64,000 bases of DNA from the NCBI RefSeq assembly GCF_011927695.1, contig NZ_JAATJE010000001.1, positions 1,674,001 to 1,738,000 of the forward strand. Direction: 5' to 3'. Below are positions 37,866-48,310 of this stretch, one piece after another. How positions within the stretch are numbered: the first letter of the stretch is position 1; each line of letters starts with the position of its first letter. Source of the DNA: Sphingomonas jejuensis (GTDB taxonomy: Bacteria > Pseudomonadota > Alphaproteobacteria > Sphingomonadales > Sphingomonadaceae). The position numbers and the translations under genes were made by a program. Under the pieces are notes generated by a model. That model was not told the DNA's origin and ran no database searches. It saw only the letters and a program-made list of their open reading frames with translations.

Positions 37866-39403
37866 CGCGGGACCGGACGGATCTGCGCTGCCTGCTCATA
37901 GGCATGGCCCGCGGCGAGCAGGCTCGCCTCGCTCCAGGCAGGTCCCATGAAGGACAGCCCGATCGGCAGCCCCTGCACCGTGCCCATCGGTACGGTCAGG
38001 TGCGGCGTTCCAGCGACGGCGGGCAGCTGGCTTGCGCTCGGCCCCGAGAAATTATCCCCTTGAACAGGGTCGGAGAGCCACGCCGGGCCCGTCGTCGGCT
38101 GGACGAGGATGGTCACCCGGTGGTCCGCAAACAGACGCTCCAGCGTCTCCCGCGCAACGCGTCGCGCCGTCTCCCTGGCGCGCACCGCGTCCGGCGCAGA
38201 AGCGACGGGCCCGGCAAGCGCCTGCTCGAAGATCTCCTGACCGAACCAGACTGTCTCCCGCGGTTCACGAGCGTTGAAGGCTCTCACGGCATCCAAGTTC
38301 CGCGTTGTCACGGTGGCCGGCGTTTGAGCGAGATAGGCATCGAGGTCACGGCGCAACTCCGCCTTCAACGCGGTGAACTCGGCCTCTCCGATCGGCTCAC
38401 GCGGCTGACTCGCGTCAATGTCGACCAGCACGGCCCCACGGCTGCGCAGAACTGACAAAGCCGCGTCGAAACGAGCTTGGATGTTCGGATTGTCTCCAAC
38501 CCTGTCCCGCAGCACACCGATGCGGATCCCGCGGATGCCCGCATTAAGCCCGGCCACGTAATCGACCTTCCGGCTGTCCGCTTCCCTGGTCGCAGGATCC
38601 GCCGGATCGCTGCCCGCGATCACGTTCAAGACCGCTGCAGCGTCGGCCACCGTCCGCGCAATAGGTCCGGCAGTGTCTTGATCGGCACTGATCGGCACGA
38701 TCCCGGTTCGCGACACGAGCCCAAGGGTCGGTTTCAGCCCCACGACGCCGTTCACCGATGCCGGGCATACGATCGATCCGTCTGTCTCCGTGCCGATCGT
38801 CGCAGCCGCCAGCGATGCCGCTGCCGCGGCGGCGCTCCCGCTAGACGATCCGCAGGCATTGCGATCCAGCGCGTGGGGGTTGCGCACCAATCCGCCGACC
38901 GCGCTCCACCCGGAGACCGAACGGTTCGACCTGATATTGGCCCATTCGGAAAGATTGGCTTTGCCCAGAATGACGGCTCCGGCTGCGCGCAATCGCGCTG
39001 CAAGGGAGGCGTCCCGCCCAGAAAGATTTCCTGCAAGCGCGAGTGATCCTGCGGTTGTCGGCACCGGATCGAGTGTTTCGATATTGTCCTTCAGCAGGAT
39101 CGGGATGCCGTGGAGCATGCCTCTCGATCGTCCGTCCTGCTGCTCGCCGTCCAACGTGCGTGCTGCGGAAAGTGCATCCGGGTTCACTGCCAGAACACTT
39201 CGGAGCGTCGGGCCTGACGCATCGACGGCGGCAATGCGATCAAGATAGGCTTTTATGAGTGCATGGCTGGACACCTGGCCGGATGACAATTGCTGAGCGA
39301 GATCGGTCAGGCTGACTTGATCCACTGCCGATCCGCCGGTCCTCTCGGTTGTCGCGCAGCCGCCAAGAGCAAAGGCGAGGACGAGAGCCATGCAGCGTGT
39401 CAT
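37820..39403 (-). CDS. Lipoprotein amidase (amidase signature family)
   Basis: A 527-residue amidase anchored as a lipoprotein (lipobox LGGC with Cys at about 16). The Ser-cisSer-Lys triad is present: Lys105 in LLKDNIET, the GSSSGSA stretch at 185-191 and Ser210 in TETDGSIVCP. It hydrolyses amides at the cell surface or periplasm; the substrate is unknown. ATGs at 39427, 39403 or 39391 all allow the signal. The gene overlaps the convergent DUF4345 gene by 46 bases, and its sequence looks less GC-biased than its neighbours. Confidence 0.87.
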   Translation of the reverse strand: MTRCMALVLAFALGGCATTERTGGSAVDQVSLTDLAQQLSSGQVSSHALIKAYLDRIAAVDASGPTLRSVLAVNPDALSAARTLDGEQQDGRSRGMLHGIPILLKDNIETLDPVPTTAGSLALAGNLSGRDASLAARLRAAGAVILGKANLSEWANIRSNRSVSGWSAVGGLVRNPHALDRNACGSSSGSAAAAAASLAAATIGTETDGSIVCPASVNGVVGLKPTLGLVSRTGIVPISADQDTAGPIARTVADAAAVLNVIAGSDPADPATREADSRKVDYVAGLNAGIRGIRIGVLRDRVGDNPNIQARFDAALSVLRSRGAVLVDIDASQPREPIGEAEFTALKAELRRDLDAYLAQTPATVTTRNLDAVRAFNAREPRETVWFGQEIFEQALAGPVASAPDAVRARETARRVARETLERLFADHRVTILVQPTTGPAWLSDPVQGDNFSGPSASQLPAVAGTPHLTVPMGTVQGLPIGLSFMGPAWSEASLLAAGHAYEQAAQIRPVPRYLPTIVVEGAAPTR

Positions 39404-39577
39404 TCGACAGATCTCCGACAGGGTCATCTATTTCGGCCCGGGGGGACCATCGCACATCAGCGCTGCGGCGCAAGCGACTGCGGCCCGACAGGAACCGACT
39501 GGCGCAGCCGGACCATCTCGGTGCAAGGGGATGCGTCGGCCGAAGGTTGCCGGCGTGTTGGTACGGGGGCTCTGCGC

Positions 39578-40966
39578 ATGATCGACGATAGAGCAGTCTG
39601 GCGGATTGCCGAGGCGGAGCGGATGAGTGTGATCGTCGATGCGGAGGATTATTTCCGGCGCGCACGTTCAGCGATGCTCGATGCCAAGAAGCGCATCATG
39701 CTGATCGGCTGGGACTTCGACGCACGCATAAGGCTGGTGCAGGGCCGGCCAGCCGATGGCGGCCCGGCCAAGGTGGGTGATTTCATCTACTGGCTTGTCC
39801 AGCGCAATCCGGAGCTCGAGATCTACCTGCTGCGGTGGGATATGGGTGCCGTGAAGACGCTGTTCCGTGGGACAACGATCTTCACGCTGTTCAAGTGGAT
39901 GAAGCACCCACGCATTCACACGCGTCTGGACGCCTTTCACCCGACGGCTGCGTCCCACCATCAGAAGGTGGTCGTGATCGACGATTGCATCGCTTTCTGC
40001 GGCGGGATCGACATGACGACGGAGCGGTGGGACCGACGCGACCATGCCGATGACGATCCGCTGCGCCGGCTTCCGAGCGGTGGCAAGTACAAGCCATGGC
40101 ACGACGCGACCAGCGCGCTTCAGGGCCCGATCGCCGCTGCACTGGGCGAACTTGCCCGGGATCGGTGGACGGTTTCGGGCGGCAGTCGGCTTGAGGCGGT
40201 GGGCGGCGTCACCGGATGCTGGCCAGACGGGTTGCCGGCAGACTTCGAGCAGGTCCCCGTCGGGATCGCTCGCACGCTGCCCGAGATGCCGAACCGGCCG
40301 GAGGTTCGCGAGGTCGAGGCGCTGTTCCTAGCGCAGATCGCCGCCGCTCGTCACAGCATTTATGCCGAAAGCCAGTATTTCGCGTCGCGGAAGATCGCCG
40401 AGGCGATCGCGCGGCGGCTTGCCGAACCCGATGGGCCCGAGATCGTCATTGTCCATCCTGAGCATGCCCAGGGTTGGCTGGAGCCGATCGCGATGGACAC
40501 AGCGCGGGCGCGACTGGTGTCGGCGCTGCGCCAGCGGGACAAATATAACCGCCTGAAGCTTTATCACCCCTTCACCGCGGGTGGGGACGCGATCTACGTC
40601 CACGCGAAAGTGATGATCGTGGACGGACGCACGTTGCGGATCGGGTCGGCGAACATGAACAACCGGTCGCTTGGGCTCGACACCGAATGCGACGTCATCA
40701 TTGATGCGGGCGAGGACGAGGCGCCGGCGGTTCGGCGGATCAGGGACGATCTGATCGCCGAGCACCTGGGAGTGTCGCGCGAGGTGGTTGCGGGCCAAAT
40801 TGACGCCCAGAAGTCGATTATCGGGGCGATCGAGAGCTTGCGGGGGCCGGGGCGGTCGCTGCGGCCCTATGAAGTGCCGGATCTGTCGGGCGTCGAGACG
40901 TGGCTGGCCGACAACGAGGTGTTGGATCCGGAGAGCCCGTCCGACATGTTCGAAAGCTTCGCATAG
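39578..40966 (+). CDS. Phospholipase D / cardiolipin synthase family protein
   Basis: A 462-residue phosphatidyltransferase-type enzyme with two HKD motifs: His128-x-Lys130-x4-Asp135 and His342-x-Lys344-x4-Asp349, followed by the GSANMN motif. Both sites are intact, so it should be active. There is no signal peptide or membrane segment, which separates it from typical ClsA. It may remodel phospholipids or act on DNA-like or lipid phosphodiesters. ATG at 39578, with GGGGG nine bases ahead. Confidence 0.85.
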   Translation: MIDDRAVWRIAEAERMSVIVDAEDYFRRARSAMLDAKKRIMLIGWDFDARIRLVQGRPADGGPAKVGDFIYWLVQRNPELEIYLLRWDMGAVKTLFRGTTIFTLFKWMKHPRIHTRLDAFHPTAASHHQKVVVIDDCIAFCGGIDMTTERWDRRDHADDDPLRRLPSGGKYKPWHDATSALQGPIAAALGELARDRWTVSGGSRLEAVGGVTGCWPDGLPADFEQVPVGIARTLPEMPNRPEVREVEALFLAQIAAARHSIYAESQYFASRKIAEAIARRLAEPDGPEIVIVHPEHAQGWLEPIAMDTARARLVSALRQRDKYNRLKLYHPFTAGGDAIYVHAKVMIVDGRTLRIGSANMNNRSLGLDTECDVIIDAGEDEAPAVRRIRDDLIAEHLGVSREVVAGQIDAQKSIIGAIESLRGPGRSLRPYEVPDLSGVETWLADNEVLDPESPSDMFESFA

Positions 40967-41070
40967 CGCGGATTGCTGCGGCGGCTGAGGCTGCGCAAGC
41001 GGCGCTGATTAACCCAGGTTGCACTGTCTCATCCGGGCGCTATGAACGCGGCGAACAAGGATGAGGCAGC

Positions 41071-42750
41071 GTGACGACGGGGCAGTTGGGGTTCCGCGAA
41101 GCAGCCACATGGCTTCGCGAGATCGTCGGACCGGACGGTCGATATGTCGGCATCGGCATCGTGTACACGGTGGCCATCAGCCTGTTGTCGCTGGCGACGC
41201 CGATTTCGGTCCAGTTGCTGATCAACAGCGTCGCGCGCACCGCCCTGCCCGCGCCGCTGTGGACGCTGTCGGGCATTCTGCTGTTGCTGCTGCTGCTCGT
41301 CGCCGGGCTGAGCGCGATGCGGGTCTGGATCATGGTCCAGTTCGAGCGGCGCGTGTTCGCGCGGGTGGTCGCCGAGATCACGGTCAGAGCGGTGCACGCG
41401 CAAAACCCGTTCTTCGACGACGAAAGCCGCGGGCACCTCTTCAACCGCTATTTCGACCTGACGGTGATCCAGAAGGCGGTGCCCAGCCTGGTCATCGGCG
41501 CCTTCACGATCGTGCTGCAGACGGCGGTAGGCCTGGGCGTCACCAGCTTCTACCATCCGTTCTTCCTGGCCTTCAACGTGATCCTGTGCGTCGCCGCCGT
41601 CAGCATCTGGCTGATCTGGCGGCGCGGCGGCATCACGGCGGCCGTGGCGCTGTCCCATGCCAAGCACGACGCCGCCAAGTGGCTGGAAAGCGTCGGCGCG
41701 TCCAACGGCTTCTACAAGTCCAGCCGCCACCTCAATTTCGCCATGGACCGGTCGGAGGCGATCACCGCCAACTATGTCCAGGCGCATCGCCGCTTCTTCC
41801 GGTACAGCTTCGCCCAGACGCTGGGCTTCTTCCTGCTTTACGCGGTCGCAAGCTCGGCCCTGCTCGCGCTTGGCGGCAACCTGATCCTGGCCGGCGAGCT
41901 GTCGATCGGCCAGCTGGTCGCGGCCGAGCTGATCCTGTCCGGCGTCTTCTATGGCCTGTACCAGTTCGGCTGGTACCTCGACACATTCTACGACATGGTC
42001 GCGAGCGCCGAGGAGCTGTCACTGCTGTTCTCCGTGCCGCAGGAAAAGGTCGACTCCTCGGGCGTCGGACCGCGGAACGGAGCCGTCCGGCTTCGCGGGG
42101 TGGAGATCGCCGACAGCCGCCTGGACTTCGAGGTGGCGAGCGGCGAGCAGATCGTCGCCGTCGTCGAGCCGGGCGTGGAGCGGATCCTGGCCCTGGTGCT
42201 GAAGCGGCACGCGACGCCGTCGCGCGGGCTGGTGTCGGTCGGCGGCAGCGAATTGGGTGCGTTCGACATGTACCTGCTGCGGTCCGCGGTGGTCGTGCTC
42301 AATCGCCCAACGATCATCGAAGTCACCATTCGCGAATATCTCTCGCTGGCGGCTGCCGGGGGCGAGCATGACCCGATGGAGGTGCTGGAGGTCGTCGGGC
42401 TGGCCGATCGCATCGCCACGCTGCCGCAGGGGATGGACACGCCGCTGGCCTCATCGGGTGCGCCGCTGTCGATCGCCGAGGAGATGCAGCTGAAGCTGGC
42501 CAACGCGATCATCAGCCGACCCAAGGTGCTGGTCCTGTCGCAGCTTTACGATCTGATGCCGGTGCGGCGGCTGAAGGCCGCGCTGGTCCGGCTGCGGGAG
42601 GCAGGAACAACCGTGATCCTGTCGACCGGCCGCCCCGAGGCGCTGGAGGCGGACGGCTGGATGTGGCTGGGCCACCACGAGCAGCGACGCTTTGCGTCGA
42701 AACAGGAGCTGAGCGCCTTTCTGCAAGCCCGCGAGCAGACCGATGCCTGA
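41071..42750 (+). CDS. ABC exporter with degenerate nucleotide-binding domain
   Basis: A 559-residue protein with the layout of a half-size type I exporter: six membrane helices (about 27-300), then an ABC-type ATPase domain. Every catalytic motif of that domain is altered. The Walker A position reads EPGVERI with no lysine, the Q-loop has Asn for Gln, the signature reads LSIAEEM instead of LSGGQ, the Walker B ends SQ instead of DE, and the switch His is missing. The fold outline (LPQGMDTPL, ANAIISRPKVLVL) is kept. It starts with GTG, and hlyD- and tolC-like genes follow with overlaps, so this is a tripartite exporter that probably cannot hydrolyse ATP itself. Confidence 0.85.
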   Translation: MTTGQLGFREAATWLREIVGPDGRYVGIGIVYTVAISLLSLATPISVQLLINSVARTALPAPLWTLSGILLLLLLLVAGLSAMRVWIMVQFERRVFARVVAEITVRAVHAQNPFFDDESRGHLFNRYFDLTVIQKAVPSLVIGAFTIVLQTAVGLGVTSFYHPFFLAFNVILCVAAVSIWLIWRRGGITAAVALSHAKHDAAKWLESVGASNGFYKSSRHLNFAMDRSEAITANYVQAHRRFFRYSFAQTLGFFLLYAVASSALLALGGNLILAGELSIGQLVAAELILSGVFYGLYQFGWYLDTFYDMVASAEELSLLFSVPQEKVDSSGVGPRNGAVRLRGVEIADSRLDFEVASGEQIVAVVEPGVERILALVLKRHATPSRGLVSVGGSELGAFDMYLLRSAVVVLNRPTIIEVTIREYLSLAAAGGEHDPMEVLEVVGLADRIATLPQGMDTPLASSGAPLSIAEEMQLKLANAIISRPKVLVLSQLYDLMPVRRLKAALVRLREAGTTVILSTGRPEALEADGWMWLGHHEQRRFASKQELSAFLQAREQTDA

Positions 42751-43834
42751 CCGCCCCCAGCACCTCGCCCATTTCACGACCCTGGCGTCGATGAAGCCGC
42801 CGGCGGTGACGCGCGTGCTGGCATGGCTGGTGATGCTGGGCATCGCGATCGCCGTCGGCATCCTGGTGTTCGTGCCGTGGGTGCAGACCGCGCAGGGTCA
42901 GGGCCAGGTCATCGCGCTGGACCCGGACGATCGCGCGCGATCGGTGTCGTCGCTGATTTCCGGCCGTGTTGAGCAATTCTACGTCCGCGACGGGCAGCAT
43001 GTGGATGCGGGCGACCCGATCGTCCGGATCGTCGACGTGGACCCGGGCCTGCTCGATCGGCTGCGGGCCGAGCGGCGCCAGATCGAGGCGCAGATCGCCG
43101 CGATCCAGCAGGCCCGGTCGGTCGCGCAGATCGACGTCGACCGCAGCCGCCAGCTGATGGTCGAGGGGCTGGGATCCCGGCGCGACTTCGAACAGGCGCA
43201 GATCCGCGTGGCGAGCGAAGGCGCCCGGCTGGCCGAGGCGCGCGCGGGCATCAACCGCATCGACACCGAGCTGAACCGCCAGTCCGCGCAGATCGTGCGC
43301 GCGCCGCGCGACGGACGGGTGCAGCAGATCAACGCGGCGATCGGCGGTGCGCTGATTTCCGCCGGTGACGTGGTCGCGGTGATCGCGCCCGAGCGCGTCG
43401 ACCGGGCCGTCGAGATCTATGTCGACGGGCGCGACGTGCCGCTGATCCGCGCCGGGCGGCCGGTTCGCCTCGAGTTCGAAGGCTTTCCCGCCATTCAGTT
43501 CAGTGGATGGCCGGCGATCGCGCAGGGCGTGTTCGACGGGCGCGTTCGCAACGTCGATCCGACGGCGCAGCCAAGCGGCCTGTTCCGCGTGCTGGTTGAG
43601 GAGCGGCCGGGCGGCCGCCCGTGGCCGGACCAGCGCTTCGTCCGGCAGGGCGGCAAGGTGCTGGGCTGGGTGCAGGGCGAGACGGTGAGCGTCGGGTACG
43701 AGCTGTGGCGCCAGTTGAACGATTTCCCGCTGAACTTCGGGCAGCCGCCGGCTGCTGCGGCGACCGGCAACAGTTCCGGCAGCGCCGCAGGCGGATCGGG
43801 CGGCGCGTCCGGCAGCGCCGACCCCTCCTATTGA
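42743..43834 (+). CDS. HlyD-family membrane fusion protein
   Basis: A 363-residue periplasmic adaptor of a type I secretion-like exporter. One N-terminal membrane helix (about 25-47) is followed by a lipoyl-type beta domain (SGRVEQFYVRDGQHVDAGD), a helical hairpin (about 105-180), the second lipoyl half (IVRAPRDGRVQQIN) and a beta-barrel domain. A Gly/Ser-rich tail ends the protein. It overlaps the ABC gene by eight bases and shares one base with the TolC-like gene. Confidence 0.88.
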   Translation: MPDRPQHLAHFTTLASMKPPAVTRVLAWLVMLGIAIAVGILVFVPWVQTAQGQGQVIALDPDDRARSVSSLISGRVEQFYVRDGQHVDAGDPIVRIVDVDPGLLDRLRAERRQIEAQIAAIQQARSVAQIDVDRSRQLMVEGLGSRRDFEQAQIRVASEGARLAEARAGINRIDTELNRQSAQIVRAPRDGRVQQINAAIGGALISAGDVVAVIAPERVDRAVEIYVDGRDVPLIRAGRPVRLEFEGFPAIQFSGWPAIAQGVFDGRVRNVDPTAQPSGLFRVLVEERPGGRPWPDQRFVRQGGKVLGWVQGETVSVGYELWRQLNDFPLNFGQPPAAAATGNSSGSAAGGSGGASGSADPSY

Positions 43835-45273
43835 TGCGACGGCTGCGGTCAGTCCTTGCCGTGCTGGCGGCATGCTGCTGCGCCCCGGTGCTGGCGCAGG
43901 AGGTGCCGGCCGAGCCGGCGGAAAGCCCGCGGACATCTCCGTTGACGCTGGAGGAGGTGCTGCGCGCCTCCGCCCGGTCCGCCCCGCAGATCATCGAGGC
44001 GCTGGCGCGCGTGCGCCAGGCGGAAGGCCGTGCGCTCGCCGCCGAAGGCGCCTTCGACACGGTGTTCGACGTGGACGGGCGCAGCCGGCTGCTGGGCAAT
44101 TACGACGGCAGCGTCGTGGAGGCGCGCGCGACGCGGCCGTTCACCGGCAACGGTGGCTATGCCTATGGCAACTACCGTGTGTCGCGCGGCGACTTCCCGA
44201 TCTACGAGGACCAGGCCTTCACCAACCGGCTGGGCGAGGTGAAGATCGGCACGCTCTTCTCCCTCTTGCGGGATCGCTTCATCGACGACCGTCGTGCCGG
44301 CCTGACGCTTGCGGCGGGCGCCAACGCGATCGCGCGGTTCGAGGCGGAGGCGAGCGCCATCGGCGTCCAGAGCCGAGCGCTGCAGGCCTATCAGAACTGG
44401 GCGGCCGCCGGGCTTCGCCTCCGCGCCTATCGCGACCTGCTGGAGCTTGCGGAAAGCCGGCGGGCCGGGATCGCCCGCCAGGTGGAGCTTGGCGCGCGGC
44501 CGGAAATCCTGCTCGTCGAGAACGACCAGAACCTGACCCGCCGCCGCGCGCTGGTGGCGCAAGCCGAACAGCTGTTCGCCGCCGCCGCCAACCAGCTCTC
44601 GCTTTACTATCGCGACGCGGCCGGGCGACCCATCCTGGTGCCGGCCGATCGCCTGCCCGACGAGGCGACGGCATTGGCCGCGACACGCGGAGGCGCGGCG
44701 TTCCTGCCCGACGACCGCCCCGACCTGCAGACCGTGCTGGCGCAGATCGACCAGTCGCTGGTCCGGCTCGCCCAGGCCGAGAACGATCTTCAGCCGCGGC
44801 TGGACCTGCGCGGCGAGGTCGGCAAGGACATCGGTCCGGAGGGTCTGGGCGGATCCAGCCGGACGCCGCTGGAGACGGTGGTCGGCGTCCGGTTCTCGAT
44901 GCCGCTGCAGAACCGCGCGGCGCGCGGCCGGGTTGCCGAGGTCCGGGCCGAGATCGAGGCGCTGTCGGCGCGGCAGCAATATCTGCGCGACCAGATCGCG
45001 ACCGAGGTCGAAGGGATCAACATCGCGGTCGACGGGGCGGAACGGCTGGCCGAGATCGCAATCCGCGAGCGCGACCTGTCGAGGCGGCTGGCGGAGGCGG
45101 AACGGCGACGCTTCGAGCTTGGATCAAGCGACTTCTTTCTTGTGAACCAGCGGGAGGAAACGGCCGCCGACGCCGAGATCCGCTTGATCGATGCGCGCGC
45201 GCGGATCGCCAATGCGCGTGGCGAACTGTCCGCCGCGACGGTCGACCGGCGCGCGCTCGGCCTGGACCAATGA
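43834..45273 (+). CDS. TolC-family outer membrane protein
   Basis: A 479-residue outer-membrane channel. A signal peptide (MRRLRSVLAVLAACCCAPVLA) is followed by the two helical repeats of the TolC fold, with LTLEEVLRASARSAPQI at the start of the first and TPLETVVGVRFSMPLQNRAARG opening the second. The ATG is in the TGATG overlap with the hlyD-like gene. Together with the two genes upstream it makes a complete envelope-spanning exporter; no substrate gene is adjacent. Confidence 0.87.
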   Translation: MRRLRSVLAVLAACCCAPVLAQEVPAEPAESPRTSPLTLEEVLRASARSAPQIIEALARVRQAEGRALAAEGAFDTVFDVDGRSRLLGNYDGSVVEARATRPFTGNGGYAYGNYRVSRGDFPIYEDQAFTNRLGEVKIGTLFSLLRDRFIDDRRAGLTLAAGANAIARFEAEASAIGVQSRALQAYQNWAAAGLRLRAYRDLLELAESRRAGIARQVELGARPEILLVENDQNLTRRRALVAQAEQLFAAAANQLSLYYRDAAGRPILVPADRLPDEATALAATRGGAAFLPDDRPDLQTVLAQIDQSLVRLAQAENDLQPRLDLRGEVGKDIGPEGLGGSSRTPLETVVGVRFSMPLQNRAARGRVAEVRAEIEALSARQQYLRDQIATEVEGINIAVDGAERLAEIAIRERDLSRRLAEAERRRFELGSSDFFLVNQREETAADAEIRLIDARARIANARGELSAATVDRRALGLDQ

Positions 45274-45500
45274 TAAGCAAGGTGCATGAACTCCGGCGCC
45301 TCGGCGCAGCGTCGACTATCCCAGATCAGTAATCATCCGGAACGGTCTCAGGATTGCTTCGAGCTGAACCGATACCTGCGGTAAAGCATCTGCCATCGCG
45401 AACGGTTAGGGTCGCAGATGTCCGAAGAGGCGACGAGGAGAGCGGCGCCTTCCCTTGACTGCCAGTTGCGCGGACTTCGCGCTTGTGGGAACGATTGGCG

Positions 45501-48310
45501 ATGATCCTGCACGGCGTTCATGACCACTATCTCGTTGTTTTGTCGATCGTCGTTGCGACCATCGCCTCCTTCACCGCGCTCAGCCTAGCCGAGCGGGTCC
45601 GGGACTCGCGGGAACGGGCGCGTCGCCTGTGGCTGGCGGCGGCGGCCATGGCGCTGGGTGGCGGGATCTGGTCCATGCATTTCGTGGCGATGCTGGCCTT
45701 CAGCATGCCCGGCATGCCGATCCGCTATGACCTGGCCCCGACGCTCGGCTCGCTGGCGATTGCCATCGGGTTCACCGGCGGAGGCCTTTCCCTCATCAAC
45801 TGGTCCCGGCCGAGCCTCAAACGGACATTGGCTGCCGGGCTGCTGATCGGTGCCGGTATCACCGGGATGCATTATCTCGGCATGGCGGCGATGCAGATGG
45901 GCGCCGCGCTCAGCTACGACCCCGCCTGGGTGGCGCTGTCCATCATCATCGCGCTTGGTGCCGCGACCGCCGCCGTGTGGCTGGCGACGCGCGAACAGCA
46001 GGTGGGCCGCCGCGCCGCCGCCGCCGCGGTGATGGGCGTCGCGATCGCGGGAATGCACTATACCGGCATGGCGGCCGCGACCTTCACGCAGACGGCCATG
46101 CGTGTCGATGCGGCCGATGGCGTGGCGAGCCTGGGGCAGACGTTTCTCGCCACCGCCATCAGCCTGGTCACGCTGGTTGTGCTGCTGCTCGCGCTCGGCG
46201 CCGCGCAGCTGGAACGGCTGCTGACGGCCGGTGCGCGGCGCGAAGCGGGGCTGCGGTTCTTCGCCACCCTCAACGACCGGCTGTTCGCGTCCGGCGACGC
46301 GACCGATGCCATGACGGCGGCGACCGCTCTTCTCGGCACCGAGCTGCGCGCGTCCCGCTGCGCCTATGCCGATGTGGACAGCGACGGCGACCGGTTCTGG
46401 ATCCGCAGCGACTACACAGCGCCGGGCAGCAAAGCTCGGCCGGGGAATATAAGCTGAGCCTGTTCGGGCCGCGGGCGGTGACCGAGCTGAAGGCCGGACG
46501 GTCGCTGGTCCTGCGCGACGTGGCGGCCGAGCTGTCGTCCGACGAGGGGCGCGACATGTTCCATGCGATCGGCATCGACGCGATCGTCTGCTGCCCGCTC
46601 ATCAAGGACGGGCGGCTGGCAGCGATGATGGCCGTTCATCAGGACCAGGCCCGCGACTGGGCACCGCACGAGGTCGACCTGATCAAGGAGGTGGTCGATC
46701 GCTGCTGGGCGCATGTCGAGCGGATCGGCGCCGAGGCGCGGCTGCGCGCCAGCGAGGAGCGGCTGCGCCTGGCGGTGGACAATGCGGAAGTCGGCTTCTG
46801 GGATGTCGACCTGACCGGGGACAAGCTGATCTGGGCGGCGCGGACCCGGGCGCTGTTCGGGATCGCGCCGGACACGCCGGTGACGCTGAAGGATTTTTAC
46901 GACGGGCTCCACCCGGACGACCTCCAGATGACGGCCGCGGCGTTCGATGCCGCCAGGGACCCCGCGCGGCGCGCGCTCTATGACGTGGAATACCGAACGG
47001 TCGGGCGCGAGGACGGCGTGGTGCGCTGGGTCGCGGCCAAGGGTCGCGGGATCTTCGACGAGGACGGGCGCTGCGTCCGTGTGGCCGGCACCGTCCTCGA
47101 GATCACGGCGCGGCGGGAAGCGCAGGATGCGCTGAGCGAGCTGAACGCCACGCTGGAGGCGCGGGTCGAATCCGCCGTCCGCGAGCGGGAGGAAGCGCAG
47201 GAAGCACTTCGCCACAGCCAGAAGATGGAGGCGATGGGCCAGCTGACCGGCGGCGTGGCGCATGACTTCAACAACCTCTTGACGCCGATCGTCGGCAGCC
47301 TGGACATGCTGCAGCGCAAGGGCATCGGAAACGAGCGCGAGCAGCGGCTGATCGCGGGTGCCGCGCAGTCGGCCGAGCGGGCCAAGACGCTGGTGCAGCG
47401 GCTGCTGGCCTTTGCCAGGCGCCAGCCGCTGCAGCCAGTGCCCGTGAACATCGCGACGCTGGTCGAGGGCATGGGAAGCCTGGTGGCGAGCACCACGGGA
47501 CCGCAGATCCGCGTGGTGCTCGACGCGCCGACGGACCTGCCGCCGGCCAAGGCGGATCCGAACCAGCTGGAAATGGCGATCCTGAACCTGGCGGTGAACG
47601 CGCGCGACGCGATGCCCGACGGCGGCACGTTGCGGGTGACGGCCAGCGCGGAGACGATCGGGGAGGCGCATCGCTCCGGCCTGCCGAACGGGCCCTATGT
47701 GCGCCTGTCGGTCGCCGACACGGGGGCCGGCATGGATGCCGAGACGCTGACGCGGGCGGTGGAGCCGTTCTTTTCCACCAAGGGGATCGGCAAGGGCACC
47801 GGGCTGGGCCTGTCGATGGTCCACGGCCTCGCGTCGCAGCTGGGCGGCGCGCTTGTCATCCAAAGCCGCCCGGGCGTCGGCACCAATGTCGAGCTGTGGC
47901 TGCCACAGAGCGCAGGCACGGCGGATACCGGCCCGACGCCGGAGCCCGCCGCGACCATGAAGACGTCCGGAACGGCGCTGCTGGTGGATGACGAACCGCT
48001 GGTGCGGATGAGCACGGCCGAGATGCTGTCCGACCTCGGCTATGAGGTGATCGAGGCGGATTCGGGCGAGGAGGCGATGCGGATCATGGCGCATGGCCGC
48101 CAGTTCGACCTGCTGGTGACCGATCACCTGATGCCGGGCATGGTCGGAACCGACCTGATCAAGCAGGTCAGGGCGCTGCAGCCGGGCACCCCGGCGCTGC
48201 TGGTGTCCGGTTATGCGGAAAATGCAGGGCTGGACCCGACGCTGCCGCGCCTGACCAAGCCGTTCCGCATCGGGGAACTGGCGGCCTGCCTGCGGCAGAT
48301 CACTGCCTGA
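45501..48310 (+). pseudogene. MHYT-GAF-PAS hybrid histidine kinase, interrupted by a frameshift
   Basis: Two open frames together encode one sensor kinase. The first part (45501-46457) has the seven-helix MHYT domain with MHFVAM, MHYLGM and MHYTGM, then the start of a GAF domain, and stops at TGA 46455-46457. The rest continues one base earlier in phase from about 46430: the remainder of GAF (SLFGPRAVTEL), a PAS domain, HisKA with GGVAHDFNN, an ATPase domain (GTGLGLS) and a receiver (VDDEP, TDHLMPG, K in TKPF). A single missing base near 46425-46445 explains it. It may be a real lesion, a base-calling error or, less likely, -1 frameshifting. Confidence 0.8.

Follow-up and report, generated by a model that had tools for sequence, protein, structure and literature searches.

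We analysed a stretch of 64,000 nucleotides from Sphingomonas jejuensis (the window; assembly GCF_011927695.1, contig NZ_JAATJE010000001.1, positions 1,674,001 to 1,738,000). Three genes on its plus strand (41071-45273) encode a tripartite, exporter-like system whose ATP-binding cassette (ABC) protein has lost its ATPase motifs. Gene 1 (41071..42750, GTG start, 559 aa) encodes the ABC-exporter-like inner-membrane protein with the inactive ATPase domain, gene 2 (42743..43834) a HlyD-type periplasmic adaptor of 363 aa, and gene 3 (43834..45273) a TolC-type outer-membrane channel of 479 aa. All three frames were open and overlapped by 8 nt (genes 1 and 2) and 1 nt (genes 2 and 3), as a preliminary description of this DNA had stated. 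Its claim that a complete HlyD and TolC follow gene 1 agreed with the profile matches: the adaptor scored 57.1 bits with PF13437, above the cut-off of that family, and 37 bits with PF16576, and the OEP domains of the channel (PF02321, 87.1 bits, two stretches) marked it as a TolC outer-membrane factor. The adaptor also matched TIGR01843 (HlyD) at 79.3 bits, below the curated cut-off of 208.65. No Rfam family reached its gathering score in window positions 40000-46500.

The gene 1 protein was modelled with AlphaFold (model m100a09479ed3, built from 80 sequences, mean predicted local distance difference test score (pLDDT) 76.4). The model showed six long helices at residues 8-320 (membrane domain, 41092..42030, plus strand), followed by an ABC ATPase-domain fold at residues 333-559 (degenerate nucleotide-binding domain, NBD; 42067..42747, plus strand), matching the six membrane helices and ATPase-domain outline described before. 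Confidence was high for the ATPase-like domain (block pLDDT 81-95 from residue 331 on) and lower for the membrane part. Translation and alignment located the altered motifs, all on the plus strand. The Walker A site now reads EPGVERILA (42166..42192, with EPGVERI at residues 366-372), the Q-loop site has Asn411 in place of Gln (42301..42303), the signature site has LSIAEEM in place of LSGGQ (42466..42486, residues 466-472), and the Walker B site has Ser490-Gln491 in place of Asp-Glu (42538..42543). At the switch site (42628..42633, Gly520-Arg521) the His is lost and the next Arg is kept. Every altered residue quoted in the preliminary description was found in the translation.

Family profiles reflected these losses. 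PF00664 matched the gene 1 protein at 28.7 bits, barely above its cut-off of 28, and the ATPase family PF00005 was not reported by Pfam at E<=1. The C-terminal half still aligned to exporters by profile and sequence comparison. In a PDB fold search, the ATPase-like domain superposed on the NBD of ComA (2.5 Å, 220 residues, Z 22.7) and on that of TAP1 (2.8 Å, 228 residues, Z 22.7). The comparison of a predicted structure with active exporters, proposed earlier as a check, therefore showed that the fold persists despite the lost motifs. Among the matches listed in the PDB fold searches there were ordinary exporters and no dead relative, a result that is uninformative by itself.

The loss was not confined to the window copy. 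Relatives were aligned as 119 rows of the subclade of the window, and as 156 rows of the whole clade after addition of 34 proteins from another family (f235) and three from Bacteroidota; some genomes entered twice (e.g. G111 and L119), so that the 119 rows are not independent. GxxxxGK[ST] was absent from the Walker A place in all subclade rows (0/119), and a lone pattern match, in L139, sat outside the motif at residue 529. The P-loop Gly at the sixth position and the Lys were replaced in nearly every subclade row, with Lys in the Walker A column in 1/119 and Glu in the Walker B Glu column in 4/119. The Q-loop column held D or N in 117 of the 119 rows and Q in none. LSGG was missing from all rows (0/119 subclade, 0/34 f235, 0/3 Bacteroidota), as was a hydrophobic-DE Walker B (0/119 and, for the whole clade, 0/156). 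A restored P-loop lysine or Walker B DE had been named as evidence that would overturn the description, and no subclade row carried either a Walker A motif or a hydrophobic-DE. Other NBD columns (V409, R412, G463, P465, D494 and R521) were fixed in 81/81 rows. Three sequences were left out of some sets: L044 (frameshifted NBD) from the first alignment and later counts, L147 (start unclear) from the second alignment, the close-pair codon counts and later alignments, and L250 (short ORF) from the 156-row alignment.

Sphingomonads were searched for the same trio, as had been suggested. A gene 1 homologue (E<=1e-40) was present in 35 of 298 sampled genomes of the same family, the window genome included. 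Adaptor and channel followed in 34 of these loci, the 35th being cut by a contig end, and gene 1 was open in 34, the G036 copy being split by a frameshift. The complete trio was thus open in 33/35. The G036 frameshift (the same locus as L044) falls in the NBD region, and adaptor and channel are still present there. A scan of named genomes gave at least 80 loci, to which all counts out of 80 refer, from genera that include Sphingomonas, Novosphingobium, Sphingobium, Croceicoccus, Stakelama, two Caulobacter and many Xanthomonas; all share the motif loss. Wherever the contig did not end within the locus, adaptor and channel were retained with gene 1.

The dead domain showed signs of purifying selection. 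All 81 aligned rows (80 loci and the window) spanned more than 190 of 211 NBD positions. NBD differences fell 18/9/72% on the three codon positions (146 close pairs), and third positions accounted for 73% in the membrane domain. Median dN/dS was 0.25 for the membrane domain and 0.41 for the NBD (NG86, 2617 pairs), values that are rough and biased by high GC. Mean pairwise identity over the 81 rows was 75% in the membrane domain versus 60% in the NBD. In 15 Xanthomonas genomes, membrane domain and NBD were 95.0% and 95.1% identical in an intact exporter, and 93.1% and 91.7% in the dead one. Decay in related strains, which would have spoken against a maintained gene, was seen in just one frameshifted copy among 35. 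Together with the dominance of third-position changes and relatives in two phyla, this upheld the claim of a conserved gene. Because the gene is conserved and not decaying, another energy source, a partner or a different job is needed. That earlier inference gained support as to the need; the gene neighbourhoods lent none to a partner ATPase travelling with the trio.

Outside the family of the window the gene is uncommon. It was found in 3 of 385 genomes of a class sample, all from that family, and in 11 of 398 genomes of a phylum sample, where the relatives came from an order neighbour (G942), family f190 (4 genomes) and family f235. The latter held 39 full-length relatives among 187 genomes, and any match at E<=1e-25 in 51. 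An f235 protein used as query over 349 phylum genomes returned 8 genomes, all found before. Loss in f235 was partial: among the 34 aligned proteins, GxxxxGK[ST] was kept in 32 and the Walker B Asp in 34, Gly replaced the catalytic Glu in 31, and Arg stood in the switch-His column in 32, with a His one residue beyond that column in three proteins. The single f235 protein scanned still matched PF00005 (63.8 bits). One f235 relative of 30% identity (L212, genome G1031) has lost the Walker A motif that most f235 relatives retain, apparently independently.

Members from Bacteroidota were found in plasmid records of Persicobacter, Riemerella and Aureibacter. Adaptor and TolC genes follow there too, motif loss is partial or total, and the Persicobacter and Riemerella members still match PF00005. 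The Persicobacter protein (L197, 7494-9668) has, ahead of the membrane domain, ~146 extra N-terminal residues that are suggestive of an inactive C39 domain; Pfam gave no match for this extension. The Riemerella anatipestifer record (L196, NZ_CP081938.1; 102 kb, labelled plasmid) holds rplU, rpmA, murB, rsmI and miaA, and may for that reason be chromosomal. Two trees, one with 9 and the other with 25 motif-intact exporters, each set the 29 degenerate members apart from these as one group (100/100); where Bacteroidota branch off from the others was less certain in the larger tree (87/43). A single clade with graded loss implies an old loss of catalytic residues, which reached completion along the long stem leading to the subclade of the window. 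As far as sequences can tell, the window copy is one tip of a clade that spans two phyla, and no local oddity.

The clade also shares three membrane-domain residues that competent exporters typically lack. Glu286 in transmembrane helix 6 (TM6; codon 41926..41928, plus strand) was present in 156/156 clade rows and in 0/24 motif-intact exporters of the same alignment. These 24 were picked for having the motifs, which makes their motif score of 24/24 a matter of selection, and many of them are almost the same sequence. In five other motif-intact ABC proteins the column held L, T or S, making E286 absent in 29/29; across the 29 the residue was Asn, Gln, Ser, Thr, Val or Leu. Four motif-intact proteins of the LSSGQ type, which the pattern had first missed, lacked E286 when checked. 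The segment around the glutamate is otherwise hydrophobic (LSIGQLVAAELILSGVF). Two more residues were invariant in the clade (156/156 rows each): Q249 in transmembrane helix 5, found in 0/24 competent exporters, and K198 in the second intracellular loop, where 4/24 also have K. An intracellular-loop motif, S-x-x-K...W, was conserved in the clade as well. A carboxylate in TM6, which would be expected of the membrane domain of an ion-coupled exporter, is among the traits of these proteins.

The adaptor is distinctive too. Near its C-terminus, the window adaptor carries YELWRQLNDFP (43697..43729, plus strand), and the corresponding motif [YF]E-x-WR-x-x-N-x-FP occurred in 27/27 clade adaptors listed and in 0/3 active HlyDs; at L190, L195 and L213 no adaptor ORF passed the filter for this count. 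When 72,556 plasmid records were searched with the adaptor protein, 20 matched and all 20 also held the ABC-like gene. The converse did not always hold: of the 15 plasmid records that carry the ABC-like gene, two (Sphingobium TKS and Sphingopyxis 113P3) had no adaptor match at E<=1e-15. This co-occurrence and the motif of its own make adaptor and ABC-like protein look dedicated to each other.

The surroundings of the trio varied. Upstream of the window copy is a phospholipase D-like gene, and downstream of it an MHYT gene. The MHYT-domain sensor frame (45483-46457, plus strand) ends at 46457, and another frame (45977-48310, plus strand) runs on into PAS/histidine kinase/receiver-like sequence, domain names that were assigned by eye. 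The two frames look like one sensor kinase gene broken by a frameshift just ahead of 46457, or divided by a sequencing error. In a plasmid DNA search with window positions 39000-47000, each record among the matches listed matched the trio or a neighbour gene, and none matched both. On a Sphingobium baderi plasmid (L223, 1455-4084), hxsB and hxsC, encoding His-Xaa-Ser radical SAM maturases, lie a few kb upstream of the trio.

Several neighbours pointed to inorganic carbon. In S. pituitosa, the order dabB-dabA-small gene-lysR-trio runs in one direction with short gaps, and on the Sphingobium plasmid pHAL16 (L225) a DUF2309 gene, which we take to belong to the DabA family, ends 43 nt ahead of the trio. 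A DabA-like gene adjoined the trio in 3 of 80 loci (L139, L142 and L146), with a rough chance estimate of 1.5e-4, or 0.005 if L139 and L142 are counted once. At L139 it forms one apparent operon with a DabB-like gene and a LysR gene. DabA was named at these three loci by BLAST to the pHAL16 protein, and DabB by a look at the sequence, not by profile. In some f235 genomes SbtA and a P-II-like gene adjoin the trio. At L216, L217, L219 and L220 genes for an SbtA-like bicarbonate transporter and a LysR regulator lie beside the trio in varying order, as does a P-II-like gene in three of the four. SbtA (PF05982) was found in 14/39 f235 genomes with the degenerate gene versus 0/32 without (Fisher 1.2e-4), in 7 of the 14 within ~5 kb, and within genus g555 in 5/7 versus 0/27 (7.5e-5). 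The sets without the gene used in the SbtA and DabA comparisons were hand-picked, and 27 of the 32 f235 genomes belong to one genus. DabA in sphingomonads occurred in 17/35 genomes with the trio versus 6/45 without (p 0.001); per genus, counting any member, in 8/16 versus 6/45 (p 0.005), and with one genome per genus in 5/16 versus 6/45 (p 0.14). Among sphingomonads that lack DabA, Sbt_1 was found in 4/18 with and 4/15 without the trio. The window genome had neither DabA nor Sbt_1, and a search of the open-licence literature for a carbon link brought up nothing pertinent. With these mixed genome tests, carbon supply is a lead and not a conclusion.

A LysR-type gene lay 0.8-2.1 kb upstream of the trio in 46 of 80 loci, in the same direction in 33 and divergent in 13. 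These counts come from BLAST-linkage clustering, which may merge related regulators, and the adjacent LysR at L146, one of the 46, may belong to DabB instead. With NCBIfam profiles, the nearest match was OxyR for the L089 regulator and NhaR for the L193 and L216 regulators, none of them reaching the curated cut-off. By BLAST, L092, L131, L139, L055 and L194 grouped with L089, L191 and L192 with L193, and L219 with L216, and L220 stood alone. A single orthologous regulator everywhere was thus rejected.

A silenced design conserved across very different bacteria means that the exporter probably runs on something other than ATP. Our preferred reading, to which we give somewhat less than an even chance, is that the membrane domain does its work without hydrolysing ATP, most likely coupled to an ion gradient through E286, with the dead domain as a scaffold. 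On this reading, the trio is a functional transporter with three dedicated parts, whose ancestor was a type I secretion-like ABC exporter and which abandoned ATP hydrolysis. With its invariant TM6 glutamate, the clade allows a more specific reading, ion coupling, than the preliminary description could offer. In such a transporter, the six-helix domain would form a homodimer and move a small solute or ion, presumably outwards, into the HlyD-TolC conduit. A proton or sodium gradient would drive transport through the carboxylate of Glu286, and the dead NBDs would persist as a scaffold for the dimer and the coupling helices. The model for this is reported laboratory work on exporters without NBDs: NBD-less LmrA (LmrA-MD) is a secondary transporter, NBD-less MsbA is driven by a pH gradient, and Glu314 in TM6 of LmrA is required for proton-coupled drug transport (PMC6155054, PMC2704374, PMC4979069).

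Several points weigh against ion coupling through E286. According to the same papers, the LmrA E314A exchange abolished dependence on the pH gradient and spared potential-driven transport, and deletion of Walker A in full-length LmrA or MsbA impaired transport (PMC6155054, PMC2704374, PMC4979069). A full-length protein with a dead NBD is therefore not equal to a membrane-domain fragment. E286 and E314 are likened by helix (TM6), and may not occupy the same position. The membrane part of our model has only middling confidence (block pLDDT 43-83), so that the place of E286 in a dimer is tentative. The conserved glutamate can instead be structural or bind substrate. Finally, f235 members mostly keep Walker A and the one scanned scores with PF00005, so that ATP binding may matter in that family.

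If no energy is coupled at all, the trio could be a gated passive channel or facilitator, in which the membrane-domain dimer, HlyD and TolC release a solute or ion down its own gradient. We regard this as unlikely, yet as deserving serious weight: it would account for the loss of ATPase motifs while membrane domain, adaptor and channel are kept, and LmrA-MD is reported to conduct ions in bilayers (PMC2704374). The invariant TM6 carboxylate and the S-x-x-K...W loop motif fit a conformational cycle better, although a pore could have them too. The other main rival, distinctly unlikely in our view, is that gene 1 supplies only the degenerate half of a heteromeric exporter and that an ATPase-competent partner comes from a gene elsewhere. 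The idea draws on heterodimeric ABC exporters, in which degenerate sites are well known and which work on one competent site (PMC7756269); the earlier statement that exporters of this type need two competent sites was thus too strong. The window genome encodes three other PF00664 exporters. Fifteen of the 80 loci, all from Xanthomonas, have an intact ABCB-type exporter ~3 kb upstream, and in Caulobacter endophyticus the flank ends within a peptidase-domain ABC exporter with intact Walker A (L101, 11717-13678) that starts 5.7 kb downstream of the trio. Beyond these 16 loci, a pattern scan of the flanks of the 80 loci saw no other exporter-type ATPase; the scan recognises an ORF only if it contains the two motifs together, and a gene truncated where the flank stops escapes it, as at L101. 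A recurrent match of 977-999 aa upstream of gene 1 in one genus (six of the 35-locus set) was dismissed as a partner, the L050 copy beginning like the excinuclease UvrA. The same scan of 17 distant loci gave two candidate matches, at L190 and L195. The neighbourhoods thus lend no support to the partner subunit proposed in the preliminary description as an ATPase gene that travels with the trio; such a partner may be encoded at a distance. The presence of the ABC-like gene on 15 plasmid records speaks against such a partner, and the loss of the signature as well as Walker A would leave both composite sites incomplete.

A role as sensor or regulator, derived from an exporter and with no transport function, would suit the LysR gene that adjoins gene 1 in 46/80 loci. 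We consider it improbable because adaptor and outer-membrane channel, needless for a sensor, are kept wherever the contig does not end. About the same credit, or marginally less, is due to a non-canonical use of nucleotide, in which the domain would bind or hydrolyse it through the replaced residues. The fold is intact and f235 largely retains Walker A and the Walker B Asp, but the P-loop replacements run through nearly the whole subclade, and a conserved substitute for the catalytic pair is not apparent. That the trio is a decaying pseudogene cassette, as the frameshifted G036 copy (1/35 loci) might suggest, is hardly credible with gene 1 open in the other 34, third-position changes dominant and relatives across two phyla.

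ABC exporters are by textbook definition ATP-driven. It is conceivable, though we hold it with considerable doubt, that a natural ABC-exporter lineage in Pseudomonadota and Bacteroidota swapped ATP for an ion gradient, turning primary pumps into secondary transporters with coupling by a TM6 Glu, a fossil ATPase scaffold and a HlyD-TolC conduit, perhaps serving inorganic-carbon or pH/sodium balance. What is new is the conservation of a tripartite exporter lineage in which all sites are dead and which has an invariant TM6 carboxylate to itself; ion coupling, if proven, would raise the novelty beyond a variant of ABC exporters. Searches of the open-licence literature by topic, accession and locus tag, with subscription papers outside their reach, found no description of such a family, nor does the accessible part of PMC8277102 contain one. 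By keeping the architecture and shedding the chemistry step by step, the clade offers a natural experiment on the roles of NBDs besides hydrolysis, and a natural test of whether exporter membrane domains run on ion gradients. It also raises an annotation issue, with several members labelled 'ABC transporter ATP-binding protein' and others 'ABC transporter transmembrane domain-containing protein'.

Among known systems, the type I secretion and peptide exporters (HlyB-HlyD-TolC, PCAT1, ComA) are similar in the six-helix membrane domain, the NBD fold and the adaptor that follows the ABC gene. The NCBIfam profiles nearest to gene 1 are HlyB, NHLM and LssB, and PCAT1, HlyB and the ComA NBD rank high among folds. 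The trio differs in lacking the catalytic NBD motifs and in the C-terminal motif of its adaptor, and gene 1 scored 86.7, 70.9 and 50.3 bits with the type I secretion profiles TIGR01846, TIGR03375 and TIGR01842, short of the cut-offs of 725.55, 693.1 and 510.15. Heterodimeric exporters with one degenerate site (TM287/288, TmrAB) have likewise lost catalytic residues in an otherwise intact NBD, but keep a competent second site (PMC7756269); the trio has lost all motifs, and a dedicated partner gene was not seen. NBD-less LmrA and MsbA share an exporter membrane domain without ATPase and, in LmrA, a Glu in TM6 (E314). They are laboratory truncations of active pumps, whereas the trio is a lineage that arose in nature and has an NBD fold, an adaptor and an outer-membrane channel. 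In EmrAB-TolC and other tripartite pumps of the major facilitator superfamily (MFS) and resistance-nodulation-division (RND) types, an inner-membrane protein powered by an ion gradient feeds an adaptor and TolC. The trio would resemble these pumps only if the ion-gradient reading holds, and would differ from them in that its inner-membrane protein is of ABC-exporter descent.

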